DNA from: Gemmatimonadota bacterium
Lineage (GTDB): Bacteria; JAAXHH01
Assembly (NCBI GenBank): GCA_009837395.1
Contig: VXTP01000030.1
Span: forward strand, 145,211-209,210
Reading direction: 5' to 3'
Length of the DNA: 64,000 bases
In this document: in pieces, positions 11,250 through 23,299 of the stretch
Layout of the letters: each line of letters opens with the position of its first letter
Numbering within the stretch: position 1 is the stretch's first letter
Notes under the pieces: generated by a model
Seen by the model: only the letters and a program-made list of their open reading frames with translations
Database searches by the model: none
Told to the model about the DNA's origin: nothing
Made by a program: the position numbers and the translations under genes

Positions 11250-12038
11250 ATGTTTCAACTGGATGCACACCAGAAAGAATTCATGGATACCTTCGGGTAT
11301 CTGCACTTCCCCGGCCTTCTTGTCGACCGGATCGATGAGATCACAGAGGCTTTCGACGGGCTGTTGAAGAAAAACGGGGGCGACGACCACGAAGGCCTGG
11401 AGCGACTGGCCGTGGTGCCGTTCATCAACCATGATCCGTACCTGTGCACGCTGTTGGACGATCCGCGCATTCACGGCATCGCGGCCGGCCTGCTGGGTGA
11501 TCAGTACCAGTACTGGAACAGCGACGGGAACCTCTACGTCGGCGACACGAGATGGCACTCCGACACCCAGTGGCCCGAGCCCATCCGATTCTACAAGATG
11601 GCCATCTACCTGGATCCCATGACGAAGGACACGGGCGCGTTGCGGGTCATACCGGGAAGCCACCGGTTCGGCGAGGGGTACGCGGAAACCGTCCATGCGC
11701 ACCTGACGGGCAAAAAGGGCGGCTGGGGTGGACTCCACGGTAGCGACGTACCGGCGGTCGCCGTCGAGACCCGGCCCGGAGACCTCGCCGTGTTCAACCA
11801 TTCGACCAAGCACAGCGCGTGGGGTGGAGGCAAAAGAAGGCGCATGTTCACGATTGTGTACACGGGACACCACACGGACGGTCCATCTCTTGAGGCGTTC
11901 AGGAAGATCATCCGACAACATGGCTATACCACGCGGGAGGTATTCGGCGGGGAGGGCGGCCCCCTGCTTTCCACGGCCACGCCCGAACGACTGCGGCACC
12001 TGCAGAACCTGATTACGCAAATTCCGAAAGCGGCCTGA
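11250..12038 (+). CDS. PhyH-family dioxygenase
   Basis: A 262-residue PhyH-superfamily oxygenase with iron ligands H103-S-D105 (TRWHSDTQW) and H188 (TKHSAWGGGKRRRMF), the following arginines serving as the 2-oxoglutarate anchor, and the PGSHRFGEGYA turn. It is a close paralogue of the protein at 29834-30685: both share the FGYL.FPGLL..RIDEIT start and the SDGN.YV.DTRWHSDT core. It is second in the unit beginning at 10136. The ATG has GGGAG seven to eight bases upstream. Confidence 0.92.
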   Translation: MFQLDAHQKEFMDTFGYLHFPGLLVDRIDEITEAFDGLLKKNGGDDHEGLERLAVVPFINHDPYLCTLLDDPRIHGIAAGLLGDQYQYWNSDGNLYVGDTRWHSDTQWPEPIRFYKMAIYLDPMTKDTGALRVIPGSHRFGEGYAETVHAHLTGKKGGWGGLHGSDVPAVAVETRPGDLAVFNHSTKHSAWGGGKRRRMFTIVYTGHHTDGPSLEAFRKIIRQHGYTTREVFGGEGGPLLSTATPERLRHLQNLITQIPKAA

Positions 12039-12088: not shown

Positions 12089-13060
12089 ATGTCTCTTACA
12101 CAAAATCAGTTACGGCATTTCATGGATGAAGGCTACGTCATCGTCGAAGGCGCGCTCACCAGTGACGACCTGGATCCCGTCATTGCGGGGATCGAGGACT
12201 TTGTCGACGAAAGGGCCAGCGAACTCCACCGCGAAGGACGGATCGCCGAACTGCACGAGAACGAATCCTTCGAGCGGCGGCTGGCCCTGATCACCCGGGA
12301 AAACACCGCGATCTACGATGACATCGACATCATGAACATGCGGGCCGAGGCGGTGTTCCGCTTTCTCGGTAACGGCCGTATGCTGGACCTGGTGGAGTCC
12401 CTCGTCGGACCCGAAATCACGTGCAGCCCCATTCAGCATCTGCGGGCGAAGCTGCCGGAGGACCTGAACAACCCTTCGAGTCACGGGAATGGTGGCGGCA
12501 GCGGCGGTGGCAACGGCGAAGAGGACGCCCTGGCCGCCCGCATCAGGGAAAACGTGGCGCCCTGGCACCAGGACGCGCAGGTGCATCTCGAGGACGCCGA
12601 CCCGGTGTTCATTCTAACCGTTTGGCTGCCCCTGTGCGACACCGACGAGGAGAACGGATGCCTGCAGATCATCCCCCGGGTACACCACAGCCGGACCGTG
12701 TACTGGAGCGAAGGATTCGGCATCGAAGAAGGCCGGCTGCCCGATGGAGAGGTCCTGTCCCTGCCGATGAAGAAGGGCGACGTGCTGCTCATGCACAAGC
12801 TGATCCCGCACCGGTCCATCCCCAACCGTTCCAAAACGATCCGGTGGAGCCTCGACCTGCGTTACCAGCAGACCGGGCTGCCCACGGGCCGCTCCTTCTA
12901 CCCCAACTTCATCGTACGCAGCCGGCGCCATCCCGAATTCGTACTCTCGGACTACGGCACCTGGAACCGGGGCTGGGAGGAGGCACTGAAGGTCACCGCG
13001 CAGCGTCCGCCTCGCAAGAACAAGCCCACCGAGCCGACGCCGATCCGGATGTACGGATAG
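12089..13060 (+). CDS. PhyH-family dioxygenase with Gly/Asn-rich insertion
   Basis: A 323-residue PhyH protein. Iron ligands are H160-Q-D162 and H241 (LIPHRSIPNRSKTIRW), with the Arg that follows for 2-oxoglutarate. Directly before the metal motif lies a low-complexity linker, NGGGSGGGNGEED (about 134-146), absent from ordinary members and probably an expanded surface loop. The C-terminus is basic (PPRKNKP). It is third in the sialidase-like/PhyH/PhyH unit; the ATG has an upstream GGAAAGGAA purine tract. Confidence 0.9.
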   Translation: MSLTQNQLRHFMDEGYVIVEGALTSDDLDPVIAGIEDFVDERASELHREGRIAELHENESFERRLALITRENTAIYDDIDIMNMRAEAVFRFLGNGRMLDLVESLVGPEITCSPIQHLRAKLPEDLNNPSSHGNGGGSGGGNGEEDALAARIRENVAPWHQDAQVHLEDADPVFILTVWLPLCDTDEENGCLQIIPRVHHSRTVYWSEGFGIEEGRLPDGEVLSLPMKKGDVLLMHKLIPHRSIPNRSKTIRWSLDLRYQQTGLPTGRSFYPNFIVRSRRHPEFVLSDYGTWNRGWEEALKVTAQRPPRKNKPTEPTPIRMYG

Positions 13061-15899: not shown

Positions 15900-16039
15900 T
15901 TCTGTGATTCCTTTATCGCTACACGAATGGCCTGTTCCTGATAGTCTCTGGCGTCATCGCCGAGGTGAAAGGAACGAAATAAGAAAACACCTGTCAAGAA
16001 GGATGCAAGTTTCTCTTTTTCCACGAACGAAAACCCCAT
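15896..16039 (-). CDS. Small 47-residue hypothetical protein coupled to the HicB-like gene
   Basis: A short frame starting at ATG 16039 (MGFSFVEKEKLASFL) and ending ARDYQEQAIRVAIKESQK. Its stop overlaps the HicB-like start by four bases (ATGA), a classic sign of a two-gene unit. It matches no toxin I recognise and is shorter than HicA. It might be the remnant or analogue of the partner toxin. A longer version could begin at 16090, but that would overlap the ribosome-binding site of the divergent sigma-factor gene. Confidence 0.42.
   Translation of the reverse strand: MGFSFVEKEKLASFLTGVFLFRSFHLGDDARDYQEQAIRVAIKESQK
15971..15995 (+). promoter_or_regulatory. Possible ECF-type promoter upstream of the sigma-factor gene
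   Basis: GGAAC (15971-15975) and GTC (15993-15995) are 17 bases apart, the usual geometry of an ECF -35/-10 pair. It lies about 100 bases before the sigma-factor ATG, consistent with autoregulation. Such short motifs arise by chance and this one overlaps the small frame on the other strand. Confidence 0.25.
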
Positions 16040-16093
16040 ACATGGTGTTTTAAGATTGGTACCGAATGAGCGCCGGCCACAAAAGGACATTGC

Positions 16094-16654
16094 ATGACGC
16101 AAGACGAGGGACGATGCATCGCGCTGGAAATCCATCGCGGCAACCGGGACGCAGTGGGGGATCTGGTGGCGGCGTACCAGGACAGGCTCTTCACCTACGC
16201 CTTCCATATGCTGGGTGGTTCGGACGACGCCCTCGACGTTACGCAGGAGGCCTTTGTCAAGGCGTTCACCACGCTTACCGGGAAATACGACGCCGAGCGC
16301 TGCCGGACGCTCGAAGTCCGTCCATGGCTGTACCGCATCGTCCGGAACCTGGCGCTGAACAGGCTGAGGTCGCGCAAACGAAGGGACGACGCGCTGGTCA
16401 GCATGAAGGAAAACTTGCCAGCACAGGTTTTCGACACCGGAAACGACCTGGCCAGGACGAGCGCGATCCGGGCGGCCCTCACGGAATTGGGAAGAGAGAG
16501 CCGGGAACTGATCATCCTGCGCTATATCGAGCAATACACGTACGCGGAAATCGCGACGGTCACCGGCTCATCGGAATCGGCGCTGCGGAGCAAGGTGTAC
16601 CGTGCGCTGCGTAAACTTCGCAAAATCATGGAGGATGGTCCCAGTGGACATTAA
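16094..16654 (+). CDS. ECF-type sigma-70 factor
   Basis: A 186-residue group 4 sigma factor. Region 2 spans about 20-95 (DLVAAYQDRLFTYAFHMLG, DDALDVTQEAFVKAF, RPWLYRIVRNLALNRLR), and region 4 about 120-178 (ALTELGRESRELIILRYIEQ, YTYAEIATVTGSSESALRSKV). There are no extra C-terminal domains. The ATG is preceded by AAAAGGA at seven bases. The 3' end overlaps the next gene by 11 bases, and that gene encodes a protein starting with an anti-sigma-like domain; the pair therefore looks like a sigma/anti-sigma operon whose signal is DNA alkylation. Identification as an ECF factor is firm. Confidence 0.93.
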   Translation: MTQDEGRCIALEIHRGNRDAVGDLVAAYQDRLFTYAFHMLGGSDDALDVTQEAFVKAFTTLTGKYDAERCRTLEVRPWLYRIVRNLALNRLRSRKRRDDALVSMKENLPAQVFDTGNDLARTSAIRAALTELGRESRELIILRYIEQYTYAEIATVTGSSESALRSKVYRALRKLRKIMEDGPSGH

Positions 16655-17534
16655 CGAAGCGAGACAGTACCTGGATCAAATCAGATCCGGCGAGGCGGAC
16701 GATGAAGTCAGCCGGTCCGTGAAGGAACACCTTGAAAGGTGCGCCGATTTGCGCGAAGAGGCCGCTTTTGTGGAAAAACTGGCCGTGGAATCTCCCAAAC
16801 TGAAAATGACCGCTCCCGCAGGGATCGAGGAGGAAGTGATGATCAGGATTACAGACAAATACGATGTGATCGACACGGATTTCGGAACGGCACACGTGGC
16901 ATTTACACCCAGGGGCATTTCGGCGGTAAAACTCGATGTGGATGAGGACGGCGCCTTCGAATCCTACTACGCCGACAGGCTGGGGCGGCCCACGGTCAGA
17001 GGTTCGCTCCCCGAATCGTATGCCGATGCGGTCAGGCGGGCCATCAAAGGAGAGAAGAACACCCAGCCACCGGTCACGCTGGAGGGGTTGACCGAGTTCG
17101 AAAAGACCGTGCTGGAGCACCTGGCCAGGATTCCGACGGGAGAGGTCCGTCCCTATGCCTGGCTAGCCCGGGAAGTGGGCAGGCCGAAGGCGATCCGGGC
17201 CGTCGGCACGGTCATGGCCCGCAATCCCGTTCCCTTCCTGATGCCCTGCCACCGGCTCGTGCCCTCGACCGGAGGGGTGGGAAACTACTACTACGGACCG
17301 GAAATGAAATGGACCTTGCTGGAACGGGAAGGGATTCCGCGGGAGGACCTCGCGAACTGGAAGCAGCGCGGGGTTCGCTTCATCGGCAGCCGGACGACCG
17401 GCATCTACTGCTATCCGACCTGCCGTGACGCCCGCCGCGTTCAGCCGCAGCACCGGCTGGAATTCAGCTGTACGGAGGAAGCGGTGGACGGCGGATACCG
17501 GCCGTGCAAGCATTGCAGGCCGTTGTCGGTGTAG
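16644..17534 (+). CDS. Anti-sigma-like / O6-alkylguanine methyltransferase / Ada zinc-domain fusion
   Basis: A 296-residue three-part protein. Residues 1-60 resemble a ZAS anti-sigma helix bundle with H29-x3-C33, but the second cysteine of HxxxCxxC is leucine (L36). Residues about 70-235 are a complete MGMT: an RNase-H-like part, then the catalytic PCHRLV with acceptor C202 and GGVGNYYYG. Residues about 245-296 are an Ada-type zinc sensor, RTTGIYCYPTC...CKHC, with ligands C256, C260, C288 and C291 spaced as in E. coli Ada. The AraC-type DNA-binding part of Ada is missing. GTG 16644 is preferred over ATG 16635 because GGAGG (16630-16634) is nine bases before it and directly abuts the ATG. Role as alkylation-responsive anti-sigma is inference; the catalytic and zinc motifs are seen directly. 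Confidence 0.88.
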   Translation: MDINEARQYLDQIRSGEADDEVSRSVKEHLERCADLREEAAFVEKLAVESPKLKMTAPAGIEEEVMIRITDKYDVIDTDFGTAHVAFTPRGISAVKLDVDEDGAFESYYADRLGRPTVRGSLPESYADAVRRAIKGEKNTQPPVTLEGLTEFEKTVLEHLARIPTGEVRPYAWLAREVGRPKAIRAVGTVMARNPVPFLMPCHRLVPSTGGVGNYYYGPEMKWTLLEREGIPREDLANWKQRGVRFIGSRTTGIYCYPTCRDARRVQPQHRLEFSCTEEAVDGGYRPCKHCRPLSV

Positions 17535-17548
17535 ATACAATGTAGATA

Positions 17549-18382
17549 CTAGCGATTACGTGGAGGAATCCTGTCTCCGACGGGCCGGGGTATAGGTCTC
17601 CAGTAACCCGAGGGATCGGCGCCCCGGCAGATTACGGCCCGGTGGTATTCCGGGTAGCGGCCGCGCACGTCCGGCGGCAGGTACCGGATCGTCAGGCCGC
17701 ATCGACGGCGGTCGGATACATTCGGCTCGGACCCGTGCAACAAAAGATCGGTGTGCATGGAAATCTGGCCCGCCTTCATGACGAAGGGTACGGGATCGCC
17801 GCCCCACCTAAGCGGGTCGTGGACGGTCTGTCCCAGCACGTTGCGTTCGGCCTCTGTGCTGTTTTCGAAAGGGATCTGTCCGTGGAGGTGGGAACCTGGG
17901 ATGACCGTCATGGGTCCGTTTTCCTCTTCCACGTCGTCGATGGCCAGCCAGATCGTCACCACTTTGCTCGGGGTCAGGGGCCAGTAGGACGCGTCCTGGT
18001 GCCAGCTCACCCGCTGCACGTCGCCCGGCATCTTGCAGAAATAGTGGGTCATCTCGCAGATCAGCGTCTCCCCGACCAGGTCCTGCGCGTAGTCCAGTAT
18101 CCGTTCGTTCATGGCGAGATTGTAGATACCCTCGCAGTGCCGTTGCCAGCCGTTGATGGAGTAGCTGTTGTACCCTTCCTTCTCCGCGCGGGCCATCAGG
18201 TCTTCGAAATATGCTCGGTTCTCCTCGGCTTCTTGCGGGGTAAAGACGTCGAGGGGGCAGAGATATCCGTTCACGTTGAAGAAGCCGACCTGTTCGCGGG
18301 ATAGCGTTCTGGGGTGCTCGTTTGTTGCCGGGAAAAATCGAAGTTCCCGCTTCATCTCGGGCAAAGCATCGGTGATGGGCAT
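17549..18382 (-). CDS. PhyH-family dioxygenase
   Basis: A 277-residue PhyH protein with iron ligands H128-Q-D130 (SWHQDASYW) and H216 (LLLHGSEPN), the DDVEEENGPMTVIPGSH block and an arginine-rich C-terminal strand. The HQD-type core with WLAIDDVEEENG resembles the better studied phytanoyl-CoA/ectoine-hydroxylase side of the family. Start ATG 18382 is supported by AAAAGG seven bases upstream; the longer frame to 18694 has no coding character. It is convergent with the sigma/Ada locus, separated by 14 bases, and divergent from the J-domain gene. Confidence 0.92.
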   Translation of the reverse strand: MPITDALPEMKRELRFFPATNEHPRTLSREQVGFFNVNGYLCPLDVFTPQEAEENRAYFEDLMARAEKEGYNSYSINGWQRHCEGIYNLAMNERILDYAQDLVGETLICEMTHYFCKMPGDVQRVSWHQDASYWPLTPSKVVTIWLAIDDVEEENGPMTVIPGSHLHGQIPFENSTEAERNVLGQTVHDPLRWGGDPVPFVMKAGQISMHTDLLLHGSEPNVSDRRRCGLTIRYLPPDVRGRYPEYHRAVICRGADPSGYWRPIPRPVGDRIPPRNR

Positions 18383-18494
18383 GGGTGACCTTTTCGAGTT
18401 TCCGTTGGTGGGCGAACGTGGTCCGGTGGCGATGTTGAGTCGAGCGGCGCCGTTGAAGTCACGTAGCGACCTTGAATATACCGGCATAAATCGC

Positions 18495-18523
18495 TTGAGA
18501 CAACCCTTTGAATGACTTAAATA
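18495..18523 (+). promoter_or_regulatory. Candidate promoter placed for leaderless transcription of the J-domain gene
   Basis: TTGAGA (18495-18500) and TAAATA (18518-18523) are 17 bases apart. Transcription would begin about at the ATG (18531), and no Shine-Dalgarno sequence precedes that ATG, so the mRNA may be leaderless. Confidence 0.4.
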
Positions 18524-18530
18524 ACCATGT

Positions 18531-19361
18531 ATGGATGATACCACGAACAGGGCGCTGCATTCGCTTGACCTCGCTCCGGGCGCGTCGCTTGATGACGTGA
18601 AGAAATCGTACCGGGAACTGGCGCTGATCTGGCATCCGGACAAGGTGCCCGACCGGGTAAAGGACCGGGCCACCGCCAAGTTCACGGAGATCAACGAGGC
18701 CTACCAGTGGCTCGTCCGCAATCCGGAAAACCTGCGGGAATCTGCGTCAACCGGGGCGTCTTACCGGACAACTTCGCAGCGCCAGTCTCCCCCTCGCTAT
18801 CGTTCTTCCTCGCAATCTTCCCATACCCGAGCGGAGTATTCCAGGTCCGGCGCCTCCCGACCCGGCGCGTCAGGTCGAACCGGCGCTTCCTGGACCGACG
18901 CCTCCAGCGGTGCGGGAACCGGGTCGTCGACCGATCCGGCTGTTCAACGAGTCCGTCAGGCCGCTCGCGGCATCTGGACCGATACCAGGGCCGGCCTGTA
19001 CGTTTACCCCGATATCGACGCCGATCGGGCGGCGAACTTCATCGTTGCTTTGCAGCTTAACCATCGTTTCAGCGGTATGGCCGCGACGGTGAACGATCTG
19101 CTGGTGTTTTACGATATCGACGGCTCCGGTGAGGAAGGCATGGCCATCACCAGATCGAACCACCTGGTCAATAACAACACCGGGACCCTCTATGACATCG
19201 GCGACCTGGTGGAAGTCCGTTTGAAGGAGGGTTTCTTCTTCTGGAGTGAGATCGTGGTGCGTAGACGGGGAAGCCGGAAGTTGGAACTCGCGGGTTATGC
19301 GGAAAACGGGCCAGGGCGGGCGCTGGTGAGTATTCTCGGGAACCTGGTGTCCGAGGACTAG
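18531..19361 (+). CDS. J-domain protein with Ser/Thr-rich linker and unknown C-terminal domain
   Basis: A 276-residue DnaJ-type cochaperone. Residues 5-65 form a J domain with the Hsp70-stimulating H35-P-D37. Residues about 68-140 are a low-complexity Ser/Thr/Gly/Arg linker instead of the usual G/F region. The C-terminal 130 residues (GLYVYPDIDADRAANFIVAL, VFYDIDGSGEEGMAITRSNH, FFWSEIVVRRRGSRKL) look like a compact beta-rich domain I do not recognise; no zinc-finger or CTD client-binding region of DnaJ is present. Likely a specialised J protein that recruits DnaK to a particular client. Confidence 0.85.
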   Translation: MDDTTNRALHSLDLAPGASLDDVKKSYRELALIWHPDKVPDRVKDRATAKFTEINEAYQWLVRNPENLRESASTGASYRTTSQRQSPPRYRSSSQSSHTRAEYSRSGASRPGASGRTGASWTDASSGAGTGSSTDPAVQRVRQAARGIWTDTRAGLYVYPDIDADRAANFIVALQLNHRFSGMAATVNDLLVFYDIDGSGEEGMAITRSNHLVNNNTGTLYDIGDLVEVRLKEGFFFWSEIVVRRRGSRKLELAGYAENGPGRALVSILGNLVSED

Positions 19362-21139: not shown

Positions 21140-23299
21140 CTATTCCATCAGCACATTCCTGAACCGGGCGATCGTCTCCCCGTCCAGGTCTTCGATCTGT
21201 ACTTCGCCGGACTCGAGTTCATACAGAAGGTCATCCAGATGCCTGTCGCGGTTCCTGAAGCGTTTGAAATCTGCTGTGGTCCTATCCTTGTGGATGAGTC
21301 TCAGTTGCTCCCGCTGCTCCGAAGTCGGATAGGTAAACTGCAACTCGAAACGCCGCGCTTTCAGTTTTTCATACTCAGCTTTCAACATGGCCATGGATTC
21401 ACCGAAACCAAGCACGCGAACCCACGCTTTGCTGCGCGTTATCGCCGTAAACAGACCAATTCGTACGCTCGCCAGATTACGAACCGCCGAATGGCAGTCC
21501 TGGGCATTGATGATGTAGACCATGCCGGCTTCGTTGCCCTTGGCGCGGTGAACCCCGGTCAGCGTCACCGATGCCTTGCCCGGTTTAAAGAAAGTATTCG
21601 GATCCGTGTCGACTCCGGCGAGATGGGATTTGATGCCCATTTCCTTCAAACGACGGCGTACCGGCTCGACGGCCAGTCGTGTCGAAAGAGGATCGGGGTT
21701 GATGACCATGATGTCGTCGTGTCGCAGTTCGTCCTTATTGAGGTTTTCGGCGATGGCCTCCGTCACCCAGTCCGTCTGTTCATCTGCGTTTCTGAAGGTG
21801 ACAAAACGGATCAGGTCATCGGGATCGGAATGGTCTTCCAGGAATCCGGGACTTGTATCTTCAGAACGGTCAAGGGTTACTGCCGATCCGTCGCGCAGTG
21901 CACCGGCCCGCACCCTGTAGCCAATGTCCTCCCAGATATGGGCCCGGTCGAACATCTGGACCAGACCGGTTTCCGCCCCATGGGACGGTTTCCGGTATAT
22001 CCCGAATCCAAGGGCAAAAGCGGTAGCCAGAACCGGCTTCGAGTTGCGGTAACATTTCGACAGCATGATATCCCGCCGCGGTGCGGGATGACCGGTATCG
22101 TCAAACCGCACTTTGGGCGATCCATCCTCGTTCTTCCCGAAAATCTCCTCTGGAGAAGGCAGAGAAATGCCGCGAAGACTCTGCAGTTCGTCATAGGCGT
22201 ACACCAGTCTCCCGGGGTCTTTGAGCAGTTTGAAGCAAAGCCTCAGAAAAATGGGCGGCAAATCCTGCGCCTCGTCGACAAATACCGCGTCGTAGACCGG
22301 TTCGAGTTCACGGGCATAAGCAAGGGCGTATTCGCACGCCCCCTCGAACTCCCTGCCTGGTCCGAATCTGCTGCGCGCCCTTCCGAAATCGAGAAACGCC
22401 ATGCCGTGCCGGCGACAGAACTCACGATAGATCCCCTCGCGGTCTTTACCCTTCCAGGAACCCCAGGCGCTTACGATACGCAGCTTATCCCAATCAGGTT
22501 CTGCGCCAGTCTGGTCCATGTGGAAGCTGTTGATCAGGCGACGAAAATGATCCTTGAGGGAACGTGAATTGAAGGTGACTGCGATGCGCCAGTCAGGATG
22601 ATACGCATGGAGATTGGCCGCTTTCAGCGCCAGTACGATGGTTTTGCCCGAACCCGCCAGACCACGAATGCGTTGTACGCCTTCGACCGTTTCCATGACG
22701 GTCTGACTTTGGATGTTGTCCAGTGTCGCGATCGATTTCTCGAGTTTTTCCAGCTTTGCGCCTCGCGATTCCTCCTCCGTTACGCTCCGACTTAATCCGC
22801 TTTTTCGAACCGTGGAAATGTGCTCAATCGCCGACAGCACCTTCTCACACATATCCTGGCCATGGGGACACGACCAGGTGAACCGGTTCAATGCCTGTAT
22901 GAGTGACGGTGCGTTCGCGAGCGGGTAATCGTCGATACGATGGGAATCCAGGTTCCTCAGTGCGGGAGCGAATGAGATGGTATGTATGGGAACCATAAGG
23001 TCCCGGCGCCGCATCAATGCCTGGTGGAACTTCAGCCGGGCTTCGAGCTTGTTGGCCGAATCGTCCTGCCGCACTCCGTAATCATCCGTGTCGTGTCCCT
23101 CGATGAGATCGAAAACGACCACGCCCATTTCGGCCGAAACCAGCAAGGCGTCAATCATCTGGAGTCCTTCGGACGTACTGTATATAGGATAGCCGATGAA
23201 CAAGCGCCCCGACCATGCGGATTGCTGTGAAACCACCTTCACCAGGGCTTCGCTTGACACGGGCTTCTGGCTGGTACCTCGAACGATATCGACACTCAT
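21140..23299 (-). CDS. UvrD/Rep-like superfamily 1 helicase with N-terminal nuclease-like domain
   Basis: A 719-residue protein. Walker A is GLAGSGKT at 213-220 and Walker B VFVDEAQD at 339-346, followed by SKCYRNSKPVLATAFALG, and the late helicase motif VTLTGVHRAKGNEAGMVYII and FTAITRSKAWVRV. Residues about 30-75 (RLFIGYPIYST, IDALLVSAEMGVVVFDLIEG) resemble a NERD/PD-(D/E)xK-like nuclease fold with spaced acidic residues. It probably unwinds and cleaves DNA, as in antiviral or repair proteins. Start ATG 23299 is backed by AAGGAA. It lies next to the truncated Schlafen-like gene and toxin-antitoxin genes, a setting typical of defence patches. Confidence 0.85.
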   Translation of the reverse strand: MSVDIVRGTSQKPVSSEALVKVVSQQSAWSGRLFIGYPIYSTSEGLQMIDALLVSAEMGVVVFDLIEGHDTDDYGVRQDDSANKLEARLKFHQALMRRRDLMVPIHTISFAPALRNLDSHRIDDYPLANAPSLIQALNRFTWSCPHGQDMCEKVLSAIEHISTVRKSGLSRSVTEEESRGAKLEKLEKSIATLDNIQSQTVMETVEGVQRIRGLAGSGKTIVLALKAANLHAYHPDWRIAVTFNSRSLKDHFRRLINSFHMDQTGAEPDWDKLRIVSAWGSWKGKDREGIYREFCRRHGMAFLDFGRARSRFGPGREFEGACEYALAYARELEPVYDAVFVDEAQDLPPIFLRLCFKLLKDPGRLVYAYDELQSLRGISLPSPEEIFGKNEDGSPKVRFDDTGHPAPRRDIMLSKCYRNSKPVLATAFALGFGIYRKPSHGAETGLVQMFDRAHIWEDIGYRVRAGALRDGSAVTLDRSEDTSPGFLEDHSDPDDLIRFVTFRNADEQTDWVTEAIAENLNKDELRHDDIMVINPDPLSTRLAVEPVRRRLKEMGIKSHLAGVDTDPNTFFKPGKASVTLTGVHRAKGNEAGMVYIINAQDCHSAVRNLASVRIGLFTAITRSKAWVRVLGFGESMAMLKAEYEKLKARRFELQFTYPTSEQREQLRLIHKDRTTADFKRFRNRDRHLDDLLYELESGEVQIEDLDGETIARFRNVLME

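Follow-up and report, generated by a model that had tools for sequence, protein, structure and literature searches.

A 64,000-nucleotide stretch of contig VXTP01000030.1 from a Gemmatimonadota bacterium (the window) contains a gene for an extracytoplasmic function (ECF) sigma factor, overlapped by a gene for a single polypeptide that joins an anti-sigma-like N-terminus, an O6-methylguanine-DNA methyltransferase (MGMT) and an Ada-type zinc domain. Sequence comparison suggests, with a probability of about two in three, that the pair is an alkylation-responsive sigma switch in which the partner protein would release the sigma factor upon alkyl transfer. The balance also tips slightly towards a broader view, that pairs of this kind in two phyla represent a distinct adaptive response to alkylation, where the anti-sigma factor would be the single-use repair protein itself, its repair chemistry directly freeing a transcription factor.

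The gene pair and its domains

The features of the locus are as follows.
16024..16052, + strand: predicted autoregulatory ECF promoter, with -35 CGAAC at 16024-16028, N16 and -10 GTGTTTTA at 16045-16052 (conservation upstream of sigma genes)
16094..16654, + strand: ECF sigma factor, 186 residues, regions 2 and 4 (Pfam Sigma70_r2 and r4_2; SigW as best PDB match)
16644..17534, + strand: anti-sigma-like/MGMT/Ada-zinc fusion, 296 residues, GTG start (Pfam, AlphaFold, Foldseek)
16644..16811, + strand: anti-sigma-like three-helix core, residues 1-56, with a degenerate zinc motif H29-C33-L36 (AlphaFold helices, zf-HC2 in orthologues, RsiW as top PDB match)
16812..16853, + strand: helix-4 segment, residues 57-70, AP..xxxVMxxI (N-terminal part common with Actinomycetota partners; aligns with RsiW)
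16854..17336, + strand: MGMT N-terminal and catalytic domains, residues 71-231, acceptor C202 at 17247-17249 (Pfam, Foldseek)
17370..17522, + strand: Ada methylphosphotriester zinc domain, residues 243-293, predicted acceptor C256 (Ada_Zn_binding, N-Ada matches)

The sigma factor contains sigma-70 regions 2 and 4 (Sigma70_r2, 1.3e-13; r4_2, 1.9e-13) and no region 3, as is characteristic of the ECF class, and its best match in the PDB is SigW (5wuq_A, E 6e-18). The two genes, their 11-base overlap (16644-16654) and the order of the domains had been recognised in a first-pass annotation of the sequence, together with residues H29, C33, L36, C202 in a PCHR motif, C256, C260, C288 and C291, and all are correct when the sequence is re-examined.

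Ahead of the MGMT part, an AlphaFold2 model of the partner, built on 72 homologues (mean predicted local distance difference test score, pLDDT, of 88), places helices at residues 3-14, 20-32, 34-49 and 61-69. A profile of 11 orthologous N-termini ranks RsiW best among 177,635 PDB sequences (E 0.007), with an alignment that spans residues 2-68 and includes the helix-4 motif APxxxxxxVM (APadftanVMak in RsiW), and the N-terminus of one orthologue from a second genus (L014) retrieves RsiW by itself with an E-value of 0.0014. SigW and RsiW, retrieved independently as best PDB match, the former for the sigma factor and the latter for the partner N-terminus, occur together in one crystal complex (PDB 5WUQ). 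The zf-HC2 family is matched in seven of the 11 orthologous N-termini (best 3.7e-6), and Foldseek places RsiW and MucA first for the isolated domain, but weakly. Each of these lines of evidence is modest and they agree with one another, suggesting a class I anti-sigma domain: a three-helix domain with helix 4 is recovered by profile, encoded alongside a cognate ECF factor, though the window protein alone matches zf-HC2 only below the Pfam cut-off (residues 7-37, E 0.13, or 0.015 for the isolated domain).

The first-pass annotation had called this N-terminus similar to a zinc anti-sigma (ZAS) domain and had suggested searching it against anti-sigma models. The likeness to anti-sigma factors holds, as these come first in both sequence and fold searches, but the zinc motif has decayed in most relatives and is unlikely to be the sensor. 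Where a ZAS domain has HxxxCxxC, the window protein has HLERCADL; the motif is intact in only three of the 13 Latescibacterota members (L009, L010 and L014), the third ligand, and in some also the histidine, being gone in the remaining ten, including the window, and it is absent in every Actinomycetota member. With the ligands decayed in most relatives, zinc or redox sensing is unlikely there.

Helix 4 is under much stronger constraint than the helices that precede it, with a ratio of nonsynonymous to synonymous substitution rates (dN/dS) of 0.12 against 0.48 for the three-helix core, and P58 is kept in 71 of 72 members. Most Actinomycetota partners are without the core and retain a short Pro-helix segment that aligns with helix 4 and is near-invariant across both phyla; this segment may represent a reduced anti-sigma contact.

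The remainder of the partner appears to be a complete repair protein. Pfam DNA_binding_1 is matched at residues 151-231 (1.7e-25), the top Foldseek match of the MGMT part is the C-terminal domain of E. coli Ada (1sfe, E 3.9e-12), and C202, H203 and R204 of the PCHR acceptor motif, as well as R185 and N194 of the active-site region, are invariant in 72 of 72 members. Ada_Zn_binding is matched at residues 243-293 (9.2e-11), where the four cysteines have the spacing of N-Ada and the domain matches the N-Ada structures 1adn, 1wpk and 1u8b, the last of which is methylated N-Ada with DNA. Of the 72 members, 65 retain all four of these cysteines, and the others lack the domain or are truncated within it. 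The full MGMT and the Ada zinc domain proposed at first are thus borne out, the latter by the profile search that had been advised. The partner is not a canonical Ada, as it has no Pfam match to an AraC-type helix-turn-helix (HTH), its domain order is reversed, and the best stretch against the NCBIfam Ada model covers only the MGMT part, far under the cut-off.

The coupling of the two genes is highly conserved. Of the 94 MGMT-Ada genes checked, 93 have a same-strand ECF gene as their direct upstream neighbour (13 in Latescibacterota, 58 in Acidimicrobiia and 22 in other Actinomycetota), and the sole exception starts at a contig end, so that the neighbourhood proposed in the first-pass annotation is upheld in the homologues of the fusion. 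Ordinary MGMT genes from the phylum of the window have an ECF gene directly upstream in none of 16 cases. In 17 Acidimicrobiia partners the zinc domain is missing and the ECF gene is kept. The window comes from a 3.8 Mb draft genome, 95.6% complete, with close relatives among metagenome-assembled genomes labelled as Latescibacterota or Gemmatimonadetes; elsewhere the pair is found, for example, in Rubrobacter radiotolerans (WP_051590067.1/WP_084264190.1) and in Streptomyces sp. NBC_00464, where the sigma and MGMT-Ada genes are followed by an Ogt gene. A plasmid of Streptomyces sp. NBC_00212 encodes sigma factor, MGMT and Ada zinc domain as a single chain (WP_331721395.1, L156:2350-3696), again with an Ogt gene behind it. 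In this chain, Pfam recognises sigma region 4, MGMT and the Ada zinc domain, with region 2 under the threshold, and a sigma profile built for this analysis also matches in the same reading frame.

In a tree of the MGMT-zinc proteins the Latescibacterota form one clade (100/100) on a long branch. As the tree has no outgroup, neither the direction of transfer between the phyla nor gain or loss of the anti-sigma core can be told from it. One pair on a contig labelled Acidobacteria (L043) groups inside the Acidimicrobiia, which is likely to reflect a misbinned contig or a transfer.

The promoter and its predicted targets

A conserved ECF-type promoter precedes the operon. The element GGAAC-N17-GTC, put forward in the first-pass annotation, is present at about 15972-15996 but is common only to the locus L008, and is rejected as the operon promoter because it is not conserved. 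In its place, CGAAC-N16-GTGTTTTA at 16024-16052 is conserved upstream of the sigma orthologues of the genus and of a second genus (L014). The Latescibacterota form can be written CGAAC-N16-GTGTTNTA, the Acidimicrobiia form TGCAAC-N15-GGKGTTCT and that of Rubrobacteria and relatives GAAACT-N-GTGTTNTA. The common ECF-type pattern lies upstream of 100 of 112 sigma genes, against a mean of 0.9 in shuffled sequence, with a spacing of 16 in 97 of the 100 matching loci. When spacings of 15-17 are allowed, most genomes of the genus have a single exact copy of the Latescibacterota motif, at this operon, and the Acidimicrobiia motif has 63 copies in 60 genomes with the system against three in 60 genomes without it.

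Some of the copies away from the sigma operon stand before genes of alkylation repair, which supports the link to DNA damage that had at first only been inferred. Among the Acidimicrobiia copies, which were counted by hand, with Pfam applied to representatives and the others assigned by sequence similarity seen by eye, 10 precede EamA transporters and two precede MFS transporters, and single copies lie ahead of an HhH-GPD glycosylase and of an Oxygenase-NA protein; a further two precede additional sigma genes of the same kind and about five have no clear gene. In the Rubrobacteria genome G611, one copy lies ahead of an Ogt-Oxygenase-NA gene pair, with Ogt first, and a second ahead of a SnoaL-like gene (L230:3514-3957). 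These targets are predictions, and the repair targets are few in number. The recurrence of EamA genes suggests export of an alkylating compound or a by-product. Such transporters are found behind the promoter at L228, L229, L231, L233, L236, L237, L239, L244, L246 and L247, and in Acidimicrobiia their start codon is usually 6-11 bases downstream of the motif. The glycosylase at L226:1048-1950 behind a promoter copy has an N-terminal S26-peptidase-like domain, an unusual fusion.

Within the genus of the window, one-mismatch sites were considered as possible further targets in three genomes and gave no convincing shared target. The sole pair shared in position, at 22649-22677 of the window and its counterpart in G005, falls within a coding gene of the opposite strand.

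Proposed release of the sigma factor and alternative explanations

In an unstressed cell, the anti-sigma-like domain at the N-terminus of the partner would hold the sigma factor, chiefly by helix 4. On irreversibly taking up an alkyl group from DNA, from methylphosphotriester at C256 and/or from O6-alkylguanine at C202, the partner would be altered or destabilised and would free the sigma factor. The freed sigma factor would read CGAAC-N16-GTGTTNTA and induce its own operon, giving more of the single-use repair protein, and newly made protein would shut the system off once no damage is left. Other alkylation-repair and export genes in Actinomycetota, preceded by promoters of this class, would come under the same control.

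Several observations weigh against release of the sigma factor. The isolated N-terminal domain models weakly (pLDDT 67), its Foldseek matches have E-values above 1 and its three-helix core is fast-evolving. Since that core is missing from Actinomycetota partners, only a short segment would be left to inhibit the sigma factor there. No target beyond the operon itself was found in Latescibacterota, and in the natural fusion WP_331721395.1 the sigma factor cannot fully dissociate.

This last protein is also the best argument for the main rival, which is unlikely on present evidence: that the partner stays bound to the sigma factor as a co-activator, methylation of the zinc domain aiding RNA polymerase at the promoter much as methylated E. 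coli Ada does. The match of the zinc domain to methylated N-Ada on DNA and the loss of the three-helix core in most Actinomycetota partners would fit such a role, whereas the resemblance of the Latescibacterota N-terminus to inhibitory class I domains, and the 17 Acidimicrobiia partners that have an ECF factor and no zinc domain, argue against it. Moreover, inspection by eye of the Actinomycetota sequences upstream of the -35 element shows no additional conserved block; the apparent lack of an operator beside the core promoter weakly favours release and fits control by the sigma factor rather than by a separate Ada operator. The natural fusion is a useful protein for telling release from co-activation.

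It is less probable still that the two genes are simply co-expressed, the partner being a mere repair enzyme and the sigma factor controlled in another way. The MGMT and zinc domains do look fully active, Actinomycetota partners carry just a short extension, and the group ECF122, described below, is listed as having no cognate anti-sigma factor (PMC8999054). Against co-expression alone stand the anti-sigma-like domain of Latescibacterota, the near-invariant Pro-helix segment of both phyla and the existence of a sigma-partner fusion. Sensing of redox state or zinc by the N-terminal motif, as in RsrA or ChrR, is already disfavoured and very improbable, given that the motif, though intact in L014, L009 and L010, has lost ligands in the other Latescibacterota and is absent from Actinomycetota.

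Relation to described systems

The system combines parts of known kinds in a new arrangement. Whereas RsiW, an anti-sigma factor of the membrane, is removed by proteolysis, the corresponding domain here is joined to soluble DNA-repair modules and has, in most members, lost its zinc motif. The likeness to the SigW-RsiW pair (PDB 5WUQ/5WUR) extends from the best PDB matches to the order of the helices and the APxxxxxxVM motif of helix 4. With E. coli Ada the system shares the MGMT and the methylphosphotriester zinc domain, positive autoregulation and repair genes as targets, the last two being predicted here; unlike Ada, it has the reverse domain order and no AraC-type HTH, and its predicted output is a dedicated ECF sigma factor rather than an activator of sigma-70 promoters. 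Zinc anti-sigma factors of the RsrA/ChrR type, which sense thiol oxidation or singlet oxygen, likewise have a soluble class I fold fused to, or acting as, a sensor, but in the present proteins the zinc site at the N-terminus has decayed, and alkyl-acceptor cysteines are the candidates for the sensing role. Cada2 of Caulobacter (PMC10957082) is similarly a methylation-dependent alkylation-response switch that differs from E. coli Ada; it is, however, a transcription factor, and the text of that paper has no ECF sigma coupling.

The closest precedent is ECF122 of the Casas-Pastor 2021 classification (type protein WP_057211282.1, Cellulomonas), which a 2022 review (PMC8999054) places among ECF factors without a cognate anti-sigma factor, with neighbouring MGMT genes and no known mechanism. 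The window system shares the conserved 6-O-methylguanine DNA methyltransferase neighbour of ECF122; for that group, the review text consulted names neither an Ada zinc domain nor an anti-sigma domain, and gives no promoter or regulon. A literature search, with most subscription journals outside its range, yielded no paper that describes the anti-sigma domain, the Ada zinc domain, the promoter or the targets of the system. The view in the first-pass annotation that such a system had not been described thus stands for these elements, but not for the MGMT association itself, which is on record for ECF122.

For the ECF122-type association, the gene pair provides a testable mechanism, with a repair enzyme, an alkylation sensor and a candidate anti-sigma domain in one chain, a promoter and predicted targets. 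If release upon alkyl transfer is correct, DNA alkylation would join the signals read by ECF sigma factors, and the adaptive response would have been put together on at least two occasions out of the same repair modules, with a different output each time. Through its suicide chemistry the switch would count lesions, and only fresh synthesis or dilution would reset it. The system is easy to test in its cultured hosts, Rubrobacter radiotolerans and Streptomyces.

Dioxygenase-like genes lie near the sigma pair in the window, at 11250-12038, 12089-13060 and 17549-18694; the last, on the - strand, is PhyH by Pfam and the other two look similar to it by eye.
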